From Gammaproteobacteria bacterium (lineage in GTDB: Bacteria; Pseudomonadota; Gammaproteobacteria; CAIRSR01), in assembly GCA_963575655.1 (NCBI GenBank), contig CAUYTY010000055.1:1-51875 (forward strand): 51,875 bases of DNA, in the 5' to 3' direction. A program made the translations under genes and the position numbers. Shown here in pieces: positions 20,987 to 40,189 of the stretch. The notes below the pieces were generated by a model that was not told the origin of the DNA, did not search any database, and saw only the letters and a program-made list of their open reading frames with translations. Every line of letters starts with the position of its first letter. Positions within the stretch are counted from its first letter, which is position 1.

Positions 20987-21072
20987 TACTATCACTCACA
21001 GTACCAACAGGTAGAGGCGCCAAGAACAGCGCAGGAAGAGAAAAAGGATCGGGAGATCAATGAATTTTTAAT

Positions 21073-21120
21073 TAACTCAAGTTGCTACCTATGGTCTGAT
21101 TCAATTCCTTGAGTTGTAAC
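21073..21120. repeat. Family B left end, partial copy
   Basis: TAACTCAAGTTGCTACCTATGG matches the family B left end. The expected right end is reduced to something like TTCCTTGAGTTGTAAC at about 21106-21120. It lies just downstream of the aroB stop codon. Confidence 0.55.
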
Positions 21121-36190: not shown

Positions 36191-37777
36191 TTATTCCGCT
36201 ACCGGTTGCTCTACCGCCAATGGTGGGGCCGTGAGATGGCTACGCCCCACCAATACCCCACGAACACTAACCCCGCTAGCCGCCAAAACAGCAAAATAGG
36301 CGCTGCCCCCCACGGTAATCCACAGTATTAGATTCAATGCCCGTGTTCCTACCCCCCAACTAATCCAAGACGCCAGATCCCCTGCACCCCGCCACAGTAT
36401 CACTCCTAAAACTAGATTGGCCAACATAATCCGCGCAAAGAAATTACGCCAACCGGGTAGCGGATGATAGACCCCAGCTCGACGTAGATTACGATAGAGT
36501 AATCCGGCATTCAGATAGGCAGAAAGAGTAGTGGCCAACGCCAATCCAGCATGAGCAAGGGGGAAGACCAGGATCACGTTGAAGACCATATTGAAAAGCA
36601 TGGCGGTGATTCCAATTCGTACCGGGGTGCGAGTATCTTGGCGAGAATAAAAACCAGGCACCAAAACTTTGATGAGAATGAAAGCCGGTAGCCCCAAGGA
36701 AAAGGCCATTAGGCTCCGCGTCGCCATCAGGGTATCAGTGGTCCCAAATTCTCCATACTGGAATAAAGTCGCAAGCAGGGGACCGCCTAATAGGGCAAGC
36801 CCCAATCCCGCCGGGATGCCGATCAACATAACTAATCGGAGCGCCCAATCCAGGGTGCGGATAAACCCCTCAGCGTCGCGCGCGGCATTGTCCGTGGAAA
36901 GTTTTGGCAGAATGACCGTAGCAATAGCAATACCGAATACCCCCAATGGGAATTCCAATAATCGATCCGAGTAATAAAGCCAAGAGACGCTTCCCGTCAC
37001 CAGAAAGGAGGCGATTAAGGTATCAAACAATAGATTGACCTGAGCCACCGAGGAACCAAATAGCGTCGGCCCCATGAGTCTGAGGATGCGTCGTACCGCA
37101 GCATCTTGGAAATTGGGGCGGGGGGGCGCAAGCAGCCCCAGGCGGAAGACAGGCGGGAGTTGCACCGCGAGTTGGAGCGCCCCACCCAGCGTTACTCCCC
37201 AAGCAAGCCCCGTCACCGGATGTTCCAGGTGAGGGGCAAACACAAGGGCGCCGGCAATCATCGCCAGATTAAGAAATACTGGAGTAAAAGCGGGCATCCC
37301 GAACCGACCATAGGTGTTGAGTACCCCCCCGGCCAACGCTGCCAACGAGATGAAGGCCAAATACGGGAAAGTGATACGTAGCATCTCAACGGTAAGCCCA
37401 TAACGTACCGGTTCGCTGGTAAAACCTGGGGCGAATAGCCACACCAACAGCGGTGCAGCGAGGATGCCGAGGATCGTCACACCGATAACCACCACCCCCA
37501 AGGCCCCAGCGGCGTGCCCTACCAGGGCGCGCACCTCGTCGTGGCTGTGCAGGGTTTTATGCTCGGAGAGAACTGGCACAAAAGCCTGGGAGAATGACCC
37601 CTCGGCAAACATTCGGCGTAGAAAGTTGGGGATGCGGAAGGCAACGAAAAAGGCATCAGCTCCGTTGCTCGCCCCAAAATAGCGGGCAACCACCATGTCT
37701 CGAAGAAAACCCAGTATCCGTGAGATCAGCGTCATGCCACCAACGGTAAAGGTGGACTGGAGAAGTCGTTTGCTCAT
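36191..37777 (-). CDS. murJ: Lipid II flippase MurJ
   Basis: MurJ moves lipid II across the inner membrane for peptidoglycan synthesis. From ATG 37777 (MSKRLLQSTFTVGGMTLISR) the product has 528 residues and about 14 membrane helices. Family marks are SRILGFLRDMVVARYFGASN, ADAFFVAFRIPNFLRRMFAE, GSFSQAFVPVL, and a helix-7 to helix-8 region FPLGVFGIAIATVILPKLS. The open frame extends 26 codons upstream without homology. It is transcribed together with ribF. Confidence 0.95.
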   Translation of the reverse strand: MSKRLLQSTFTVGGMTLISRILGFLRDMVVARYFGASNGADAFFVAFRIPNFLRRMFAEGSFSQAFVPVLSEHKTLHSHDEVRALVGHAAGALGVVVIGVTILGILAAPLLVWLFAPGFTSEPVRYGLTVEMLRITFPYLAFISLAALAGGVLNTYGRFGMPAFTPVFLNLAMIAGALVFAPHLEHPVTGLAWGVTLGGALQLAVQLPPVFRLGLLAPPRPNFQDAAVRRILRLMGPTLFGSSVAQVNLLFDTLIASFLVTGSVSWLYYSDRLLEFPLGVFGIAIATVILPKLSTDNAARDAEGFIRTLDWALRLVMLIGIPAGLGLALLGGPLLATLFQYGEFGTTDTLMATRSLMAFSLGLPAFILIKVLVPGFYSRQDTRTPVRIGITAMLFNMVFNVILVFPLAHAGLALATTLSAYLNAGLLYRNLRRAGVYHPLPGWRNFFARIMLANLVLGVILWRGAGDLASWISWGVGTRALNLILWITVGGSAYFAVLAASGVSVRGVLVGRSHLTAPPLAVEQPVAE

Positions 37778-37939
37778 ATAGTAAAAACAGTTAGTTCCCT
37801 TGAGGGATGGGGGGGATGAAATGGTGTGTGTAGCGGGTGTGACCCTCACCGCCACCGGGTCAAACCAAAGTGCAAGGCAAGCCTTGCATGCTGACCCCCT
37901 GACGGCGTTAAATCCTTCGATGGGAGTGAGGGTGAGCGG

Positions 37940-38431
37940 TTACCGTGGTGGTGACAAAAGGGTTTGCTGTAACTCGGTGAGTAGGCCCCGGGCTGCGGCA
38001 TCCACGATGTCCAATACGTGCTCAAAACCATCCTGCGCCCCGTAATAGGGGTCAGGAACCTCGTCAACGGGGAGATGAGGCGCAAATTCTAGGAAGAGTC
38101 TGATCTTGTGGCCGCATTGAGGTGGCGCGGCCTGATGGAGCGCGTCGTAGTTGTCTCGATCCATCGCCAATAGGTAGTGATAGTATTCAAAGTCTTTGGG
38201 AACTACGCGTCGTGCCCGGAGTGCATTGAGGTCGACACCGCGACGTGCTGCGGCCTCGCGACTGCGTCGATCCGGTGCTTCACCCACATGGTAGGCGTGT
38301 GTACCGGCAGAATCGATCTCAAACCGGTGCTCAAGGTGGTGCTCTCGCACCAGTCGGGTGAATACTCCCTCCGCAGTAGGGGAACGACAGATGTTACCCA
38401 TACAAACGAAAAGTATTTTGATCTTTTCCAT
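37940..38431 (-). CDS. Low-molecular-weight protein-tyrosine phosphatase
   Basis: A 163-residue phosphatase of the arginine/tyrosine LMW-PTP family. The N-terminal P-loop is FVCMGNICRSPTAEG, giving Cys10 and Arg16 of the CX5R motif. The general-acid region is VPDPYYG, and EIDSAGTHAYHVGEAPDRRS is also conserved. Such enzymes act on tyrosine-phosphorylated proteins, often in exopolysaccharide control; no tyrosine kinase gene is close. It may share a transcript with murJ (gap of about 160 bp). Its 5' end and 30 bases of leader have been duplicated at 38538-38650. Confidence 0.93.
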   Translation of the reverse strand: MEKIKILFVCMGNICRSPTAEGVFTRLVREHHLEHRFEIDSAGTHAYHVGEAPDRRSREAAARRGVDLNALRARRVVPKDFEYYHYLLAMDRDNYDALHQAAPPQCGHKIRLFLEFAPHLPVDEVPDPYYGAQDGFEHVLDIVDAAARGLLTELQQTLLSPPR

Positions 38432-38537
38432 ACTGATGATTCTTCTATCTATCGTGGGGGATGCAGGTAGTCATGGTCACGCCGGGTCGCGCTAGTCTAT
38501 TCGATTTCCGGCTATCCACAAGGTTGCCTTTCTGTAT

Positions 38538-38618
38538 CAGTCGCGTAAAGACTCCCTAAGCGTTGGGAGAACGGCAGATGCTACCCATGCAGAAGAAAAG
38601 AATCTTCATTTTTTTGAT
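38538..38618 (-). pseudogene. Dead duplicate of the LMW-PTP 5' end
   Basis: On the minus strand this reads KKMKILFFCMGSICRSPNA, stop, GVFTRLI, against KIKILFVCMGNICRSPTA-E-GVFTRLV in the intact gene. The start codon is ATC instead of ATG, a TAG at 38556-38558 replaces a Glu codon, and homology ends after about 27 codons. The full homologous block is 113 bp without gaps (38351-38463 against 38538-38650); I count about 81 of the first 110 positions identical. The plus strand of this block is the start of the next gene. Confidence 0.85.
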
Positions 38619-39240
38619 AGCGGTGATTTTGCTGTCCATTGTGGAGGGGACGTTTTTGAGGCTTATTTTGCCACCGTGCGTAGCATCGAATTCGGGACAA
38701 GATCAGACCGCCTCGTTATCGGTAGCAAATAAATCCGAAACGAACCAATCTGTTGAAAACCAATTGGTACCAAACCAATCTTTGGCAAATATCGACAGTC
38801 TCCGAATTCTGGGAGACCAGTTAGACCACCTTCGTGAGATGAATACTCGCCTGGTCGATTATGTTCGTACCTTGCGTCCTACCGCCCCTGGCGAGATTTT
38901 GGTAGAGCAGGTCCGTCATGCCCGTTACTGGGTTGCTATCTACCTTGCCACTGCGGACGAAGATGCCAAACAACGCCTAACCGAGGCATTGACGCGAGTG
39001 GGATATACGGTAACTCCAGGAGATGCCTTGCATCTGCGCCCTATTGATTCGGAACAGCGTGCTAAAGTCTTCTATTTCCACGACGATGCCTTTGGGGCCG
39101 CTGATGAATTAGCCAAGCTTATGGGGCGATTGACGGGAGAAGCTTTTGATATACGCCGAGGCAGCGGGTTATCTCTGCCCTCTGAACAGCAACGTTGGAC
39201 TTTTGTCGTCTCTGCTACGCAAGTCTTTCCCAAGAATTGA
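38578..39240 (+). CDS. Hypothetical membrane-anchored protein with a start made from antisense phosphatase DNA
   Basis: A 220-residue frame. Residues 1-30 (MLPMQKKRIFIFLIAVILLS...) form a signal anchor. A Gln/Asn/Ser-rich spacer with repeated NQS/NQL units covers about 40-70, followed by a short coiled coil (SLRILGDQLDHLREMNTRLV). The C-terminal half (AKVFYFHDDAFGAADELAKL) resembles the small domain at the end of LytR-type proteins, though this is only a similarity by eye. The first 24 codons lie entirely in the duplicated antisense phosphatase block. GGGAG eight bases before ATG 38578 can serve as ribosome site. I do not know the function. Confidence 0.65.
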   Translation: MLPMQKKRIFIFLIAVILLSIVEGTFLRLILPPCVASNSGQDQTASLSVANKSETNQSVENQLVPNQSLANIDSLRILGDQLDHLREMNTRLVDYVRTLRPTAPGEILVEQVRHARYWVAIYLATADEDAKQRLTEALTRVGYTVTPGDALHLRPIDSEQRAKVFYFHDDAFGAADELAKLMGRLTGEAFDIRRGSGLSLPSEQQRWTFVVSATQVFPKN

Positions 39241-39376
39241 GACAATTTTTACCAGTGGTATGGCGTTAGAGCGATGATTGGGTCACGGTAACCATTCACC
39301 TCCTCCCGCCGGGAGAGAAGCAACGGTTACGTTAGTAGCAACTATTTCAAATGAAAACCGTATCCTGAGGCAAAAT

Positions 39377-40189
39377 ATGAAATTATTTTTTGGAATACTC
39401 ACCTTGCTTGGGGCTCTTTTTATTTCCAGCATTGCTGCTTATTTCAGTATCATTGGTCTTGCGGCGATTTTCGCTGCAACTTTTACCCCGGTGGTGGTCA
39501 TGACGGGAGTATTGGAGGGAGGGAAAATAATTGCTGCGGCATGGCTACATGCCAACTGGAAAAACCGAGATGTCAGTTGGCTGCATAAGTTATATCTCAT
39601 CATGGCGGTACTCGTGCTCATGGTGGTGACCGCAGTAGGCATCTACGGTTTTCTCAGTAAGGGGCATTTTGAACAAAAGGCCCCATTGGCGGGTATCAAC
39701 CTTCAAATTGCTCAGCATGAGCAGTCTGTTGCGCAGATTGAACGAGAAAATTCTCGACTTCAGGCGAAAACCGATCAGTTCGACAAAATCATTGATGCCT
39801 ATCTCAGAAACAATAAAGTGACTCTGAGCATCAAGACAAAAAAGGAACAAGATCCTGATCGCAACGAAATTCAGAAACAGATCACAGCCAATAAAAACGA
39901 AATTACTCGGTTGAACAAAGAGTTGTTGTCGTTGCGCTTACAGACTAGTGAGGTTGAGGCAAGTCTGGGGCCGGTTAAATATGTTGCCGCCTTGTTTGGT
40001 TGGCAGGATACGAGCTATGCAATACGGATGCTAATTTTGCTGTTGATGTTCTCCTTCGATCCGTTGGCGATTGTGCTCATCCTTTCTTCTTCTATTTCTC
40101 TGGGTGAATACTTTACCGCAAGCGGTAATAGTAAAAGAAGCATTACTACCTCGTCAGCGTTGGTGCCGCTATCGTCGGTAGCGGAATAG
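39377..40189 (+). CDS. Four-helix membrane protein with a long coiled coil, phage-like
   Basis: From ATG 39377 the protein has 270 residues. Helices span about 3-22, 25-46 and 73-95; a long coiled coil follows (about 110-205: LQIAQHEQSVAQIERENSRL, QIQKQITANKNEITRLNKEL-like), then a final hydrophobic segment (about 215-243, MLILLLMFSFDPLAIVLILS). The motif GVLEGGKIIAAAWLHANWKN, with SWLHKLYLIMAV, recalls membrane proteins found in large tailed-phage genomes, where VLE.(G/A)K...A.WLH.NW is common. That is recollection, not a search. A TGAGG site precedes the start. The open frame extends 33 codons up without support. Function unknown. Confidence 0.7.
   Translation: MKLFFGILTLLGALFISSIAAYFSIIGLAAIFAATFTPVVVMTGVLEGGKIIAAAWLHANWKNRDVSWLHKLYLIMAVLVLMVVTAVGIYGFLSKGHFEQKAPLAGINLQIAQHEQSVAQIERENSRLQAKTDQFDKIIDAYLRNNKVTLSIKTKKEQDPDRNEIQKQITANKNEITRLNKELLSLRLQTSEVEASLGPVKYVAALFGWQDTSYAIRMLILLLMFSFDPLAIVLILSSSISLGEYFTASGNSKRSITTSSALVPLSSVAE

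Follow-up and report, generated by a model that had tools for sequence, protein, structure and literature searches.

In the locus described here, the 5' end of an LMW-PTP gene is repeated, the repeat extends into the spacer between its two copies, the outer copy (copy B) is dead as a phosphatase, and a coding-like frame of 220 codons on the opposite strand is open through that copy. We suggest, at slightly below even confidence, that the locus is the fossil of a head-to-head gene overlap split by a short tandem duplication, with the sense protein retained in one copy and the antisense start, ribosome site and anchor in the other. The window, i.e., the whole stretch of DNA analysed, was 51,875 nt of contig CAUYTY010000055.1 (assembly GCA_963575655.1; Gammaproteobacteria bacterium, CAIRSR01), forward strand. 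The features of the locus were as follows.

37940–38431, minus strand: intact LMW-PTP gene, 163 codons (Pfam LMWPc, E 1.2e-39)
38351–38463, minus strand: copy A, LMW-PTP codons 1–27 with the 32 bp that precede the ATG (110-mer comparison)
38391–38495, plus strand: frame antisense to copy A, open for 34 codons (MLPIQTKSILIFSILMILLSIVGDAG...), hydrophobic and possibly left over from an ancestral anchor (sequence, frame comparison, Kyte-Doolittle)
38464–38537, minus strand: spacer, with gapless phosphatase homology (codons 28–37) at 38508–38537 and weak homology with indels in the rest (k-mer ranking, gapped alignment)
38538–38650, minus strand: copy B, dead LMW-PTP 5' end, ATC for ATG and TAG at codon 21 (110-mer comparison, frame reading)
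38565–38569, plus strand: Shine-Dalgarno-like GGGAG, 8 nt before the ATG, antisense to former phosphatase codons 17–18 (sequence)
38578–39240, plus strand: 220-codon orphan frame; residues 1–24 in copy B, of which about the first 14 lie opposite former phosphatase codons (frame list, codon usage, frame comparison)
38602–38646, plus strand: hydrophobic segment IFIFLIAVILLSIVE..., predicted membrane anchor (Kyte-Doolittle, low-confidence model)
38932–39129, plus strand: possible LytR_C-like stretch, residues 119–184, under the family cut-off (Pfam)

The start of the phosphatase gene is duplicated

Copies A and B lie 187 bp apart and were aligned without gaps, with 81 of 113 positions identical (also 81 in the first 110). 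When copy A was compared with every 110-mer of the window, the next best site after copy B reached 49/110 on the plus strand and 47/110 on the reverse complement; therefore, the likeness of the copies is far above chance, and the gapless 113-bp repeat of the original prediction was confirmed. The gene that contains copy A is an LMW-PTP: the LMWPc family covered residues 6–151, and the CX5R P-loop was present as CMGNICRSP. Relatives of it were present in genomes G002 (76% identity) and G003 (72%). A phosphatase scan of genome contigs, in which the best 80 of 584 loci were kept, gave none above 66% identity; i.e., these 80 appear to include no closer relative. Copy B read IKKMKILFFCMGSICRSPNA*GVFTRL in the phosphatase frame, with ATC in place of the start ATG, the changes V9F, N13S and T19N, and TAG as codon 21. 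Having neither the start codon nor the open reading frame of an LMW-PTP, copy B can no longer encode this enzyme, as had been claimed.

The repeat was found where it had been predicted, but its predicted length was too short, as homology continued for about 30 bp into the spacer. The 24 nt of spacer adjoining copy B were scored against three phosphatase genes (that of the window, L003 and L004) and were bettered by 1 of 102,256 window 24-mers; longer stretches were bettered more often (30 nt, 20/102,232; 42 nt, 334/102,184; 60 nt, 1,230/102,112). The 24–30 nt beside copy B matched phosphatase codons 28–37. A gapped extension over the whole spacer to the phosphatase body was equalled by 14 of 1000 shuffles, and by 8/400 and 5/400 under two other scoring schemes; the outermost 45 bp taken alone showed no significant homology. 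The flanks that follow copy A (38464–38537) and copy B (38651–38724) did not match each other (score 2, with 400/400 shuffles as good). Since the spacer aligned to the phosphatase body while the two flanks were unlike, we placed the end of a tandem unit at 38463/38650. In a tandem repeat, the spacer should resemble the far end of the repeated unit; this homology was clear for the adjoining 24–30 nt and weak and gapped for the remainder. The arrangement fits an old tandem duplication with a unit of about 187 bp, of which 38464–38650 would be the outer copy. As the outer copy of a tandem keeps the original outer flank, here 38651 onward, the junction with the 220-codon frame would predate the duplication.

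The opposite strand of copy B opens a coding-like frame

On the plus strand of copy B, GGGAG was followed after 8 nt by an ATG (38578), from which MLPMQKKRIFIFLIAVILLSIVEG continues into the 220-codon frame and its stop at 39240. The ribosome site, start and hydrophobic beginning that the original prediction had assigned to this strand were thus borne out, together with about 14 antisense residues and a coding-like frame. Using log-odds trained on long frames from other parts of the window, codon usage scored 0.147 per codon for the whole frame and 0.120 for its 24 duplicated codons, like neighbouring genes, while the other five frames scored −0.13 to −0.36. The opening codons of the frame, about 14 of them, lie opposite former LMW-PTP codons 1–14, so that its putative coding sequence derives there from the other strand of a known gene, as in overprinting. 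Only about 41 bp of the DNA behind the anchor are antisense to phosphatase codons, and AVILLSIVEG is encoded by sequence upstream of the phosphatase.

The 220-aa product matched Pfam LytR_C at 17 bits (E 0.012), below the gathering cut-off of 22.2, and gave no NCBIfam match up to E 1. A single-sequence structure model of low confidence (mean pLDDT 46.6) contained an anchor helix (residues 4–30), a polar linker, a long helix and an alpha/beta part. The product would be a membrane-anchored extracytoplasmic protein with its start at 38578; start, anchoring and role are all putative. A promoter and terminator scan of 38300–38800 found nothing, including no sigma-70-like promoter.

Homologues of the 220-aa protein

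Searches with the 220-aa protein returned only itself in its own genome and only itself among 56 relatives, and no match in genome contigs, plasmids and viral contigs. The host order was represented by four genomes among those searched. The C-terminal part gave seven weak matches besides its own in 274 genomes of the class (best E 1.4e-4, in G159), and 398 genomes of the phylum gave three (best E 0.0012). The match in G159 was rejected as a chance hit, as it falls in a 607-aa frame that we take to be a RecD-like helicase. PDB sequences gave two matches (E about 0.5) and PHROGs one (E 0.056). A convincing homologue, with or without the duplication, such as the original prediction had proposed to look for, was not found in any collection searched; therefore, the order of events is a proposal, and the expression and function of the protein are putative.

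The antisense of the P-loop in copy A and in relatives

The first seven residues of the 220-codon frame mirror the P-loop codons, and xLP[IM][QH]T[NK] was present at this place in 78 of 79 relatives; therefore, the mirror motif in the intact copy is by itself no evidence of function. Its start position was ATG in 18/79 relatives and ATA in 61/79, and a Shine-Dalgarno-like string preceded the mirror ATG in 2 of the 18. These motif counts used 79 of the 80 loci, leaving out L060, in which the exact P-loop string is missing; for starts and Shine-Dalgarno strings, the P-loop pattern gave 81 hits, and the 79 with a nearby SAG were kept. The phosphatase thus appears to have a start-like element nearly built in, and the combination of ribosome site, ATG and open hydrophobic frame appears unusual.

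The antisense frame that had been reported in the intact copy was present, starting at 38391 with a stop after 34 codons. Its Kyte-Doolittle 15-residue maximum was 2.97, against 3.03 for copy B (within the first 24 codons). The best value in relatives was 2.27 among the 28 with the frame open and 2.91 among all 80 (stops scored as 0), in a comparison that was picked after the data were seen. The frame was open for 24 codons in 28 of 80 loci with a looser P-loop string and in 27 of 79 with the exact string. Over 19 residues, copy B reached 2.68 and the copy A antisense 2.19. The hydrophobic antisense of copy A is best read as a relic of an ancestral anchor, because copy A is now joined to no long frame. 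In G002 (L003, 1868–2098), the antisense of the phosphatase start was likewise open (MFPMQTKSILIVSVRTVGL...) but not strongly hydrophobic, with a 19-residue maximum of 0.99.

The spread of the mirror motif among relatives raises the alternative of a genuine 220-codon gene whose start lies downstream of copy B, e.g., at the ATG at 38839, in which case the antisense start would have arisen by chance from the P-loop mirror. According to PMC2478687, overextension of divergent genes is common among gene finders. We consider a downstream start very improbable, as GGGAG, 8 nt and ATG are followed by 24 open codons with coding-like usage, and an anchor this strong was found in none of the 28 relatives with the frame open.

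Constraint and age

The original prediction had proposed that synonymous and non-synonymous change be compared on the two strands. Between copies A and B, 7 of the 24 plus-frame codons were identical, 8 differed synonymously and 9 were changed, whereas 12.4 changed codons were expected when the same changes were placed at random (p 0.035). The comparison thus gave weak support over the whole stretch but not outside the phosphatase codons, where the plus frame was not significant (p 0.086). Within the overlap, constraint cannot be assigned to one strand, because both frames share third positions. The substitution seen as N13S in the dead phosphatase frame turns TTA into CTA in the plus frame and leaves the residue there unaltered; the one that removed the phosphatase ATG of copy B belongs to a Ser-to-Leu replacement within the anchor.

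At the 27 third positions, copies A and B differed at 15, copy A and L003 at 12, copy A and L004 at 16, and L003 and L004 at 15. As this divergence resembles that between species, the duplication would be old, or copy B would come from a diverged relative, and the plus frame of copy B would have been open for a long time. The copies differed at 20 sites in 27 codons. With both outgroups in agreement, the derived state lay in copy B at 7 sites and in copy A at 1; with one outgroup in agreement, the counts were 3 and 2, respectively; and 7 sites were unpolarised.

Copy B might therefore be the remnant of a second, diverged LMW-PTP, either an old whole-gene duplicate or a piece taken up from a relative, which was once functional and was then deleted down to its 5' end, with the plus frame using the rest. 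Besides the species-like divergence, this reading draws on phosphatase codons 14–27, outside the 220-codon frame, where 2 codons were changed against 6.1 expected (p 0.0009). This value arises partly because copy A is a living phosphatase, which itself adds constrained changes, and copy B carries seven of the eight changes where the outgroups agree. In addition, A and B resemble each other, but not G002 or G003, in the 32 bp that precede the ATG, which favours a local duplication: over 29 nt of this stretch, A and B showed 9 mismatches to each other and 20–24 to G002 or G003. We regard a second phosphatase as improbable.

Gene neighbourhood

In G002, the genes stand on one strand in the order ribD, ribE, LMW-PTP, murJ and ribF; G003 has the same order, but an extra frame separates ribD and ribE (all names besides LMW-PTP are our assumption). 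The stretch presumed to be ribE-LMW-PTP-murJ-ribF is contiguous in both sister-genus genomes (window 36191–38431 compared with L015, L016, L017, L018 and L031). In the window genome, the presumed ribE is on another contig, followed by a presumably ribBA-like frame, and the ribE/LMW-PTP linkage is broken. In G001, which belongs to the genus of the window genome, LMW-PTP was absent from the locus beside the presumed murJ. Because of the broken link and of the 29 upstream nt common to A and B but not to G002 and G003, it appears that the 220-codon frame came to lie head to head with the phosphatase after a rearrangement, or else that the sister genus swapped its neighbour.

The frame at 39278–40189 encodes a protein of unknown family with membrane and coiled-coil-like parts. 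Its relative in G001 is 67% identical and lies elsewhere, with unrelated neighbours and no 220-codon frame. Two further stretches of the window matched a stretch between frames in G001: 21069–21091 was an exact 23-bp match to L031 5079–5101, and 7499–7557 matched over 59 bp at 76%. They possibly represent a short interspersed repeat of the genus.

Proposed order of events

We infer a tandem mechanism and an overlap that preceded the duplication, as the simplest history of the locus. A rearrangement would first have brought the orphan frame to the phosphatase, producing an ancestor in which the LMW-PTP gene overlapped at its 5' end with that of a divergent orphan gene on the opposite strand. 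The antisense of phosphatase codons 1–18 would have given the orphan gene its Shine-Dalgarno sequence, its ATG and about 14 residues, after which the frame continued in its own sequence, with an ancestral coding overlap of 41 bp, corresponding to 38391–38431 in copy A. A tandem duplication of about 187 bp would then have copied 38277–38463 as 38464–38650, leaving one copy per gene. The inner copy A would have remained the phosphatase; the outer copy B, still joined to the orphan frame, would have ceased to be readable as phosphatase through loss of start codon and open frame, and would have become the private 5' end of the orphan gene, encoding its N-terminal membrane anchor.

The original prediction implied that the duplication came first and made the new N-terminus. 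Its antisense origin stands for the ribosome site, the start and about 14 residues; the duplication as maker is not supported, as the junction with 38651 appears older. The open, hydrophobic antisense of copy A and the small share of the anchor that is antisense to phosphatase codons also speak against an anchor made by the duplication. We therefore reversed the order, giving overprinting before duplication about even chances, and we favour, as an evenly poised judgement, a pre-existing 41-bp head-to-head overlap relieved by the duplication rather than an anchor made by it. The overlap is placed first because both copies keep the plus frame open and the copy A antisense is more hydrophobic than in the 28 open relatives. 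Counting against it are the lack of a homologue in the collections searched, the non-significant plus-frame constraint beyond the phosphatase codons, the unmatched outermost 45 bp of the spacer, the post hoc choice of the hydrophobicity comparison and the negative promoter scan.

Conversely, a duplication may have come first, with the decaying outer copy exapted so that a frame already present, or just arising, received a new start and anchor from its antisense. Copy B, no longer able to encode a phosphatase, bears the start of a coding-like frame, its anchor is slightly more hydrophobic than the copy A antisense over both 15 and 19 residues, and plus-frame stops could have vanished after duplication. 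We consider this order unlikely, though the likeliest of the rivals: the tandem geometry puts the 38651 junction before the duplication, and the antisense of copy A is open and hydrophobic though it now leads nowhere.

Comparison with known systems

Most work on overprinted genes concerns pairs in which neither frame has been lost. If the overlap came first, a duplication can free an overprinted pair from conflict, leaving an antisense-derived 5' end that is invisible as an overlap. The LMW-PTP P-loop codons, which in reverse dictate the mirror motif with its frequent ATG, would constitute a near-ready antisense start that evolution could reuse. A limited literature search, which is no proof of absence, turned up no example of a head-to-head overlap relieved by duplication.

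The ancestor proposed here resembles the divergent prokaryotic overlaps of PMC2478687 in being such an overlap, of 41 bp. In that study, all 75 examined divergent overlaps of >60 bp were judged to be mis-annotations (mis-annotated starts), and the rarity of head-to-head overlaps weakens the overlap-first account; those cases were judged to be annotation errors, whereas the evidence here is a duplication fossil. The overprinted antiparallel bacterial orphan genes nog1/citC (PMC4683798) and laoB (PMC5810103) share with this locus coding from the strand opposite an established gene and a taxonomically restricted protein. They differ in that the new gene is embedded in a living one and reportedly comes with evidence of expression; at this locus, antisense origin is confined to the 5' end of a putative gene, and the host copy is dead. 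Finally, a partial tandem gene duplication likewise leaves a direct repeat of the gene's 5' end with a pseudogenised outer copy; unlike in an ordinary one, the outer copy here was apparently retained for its antisense strand.
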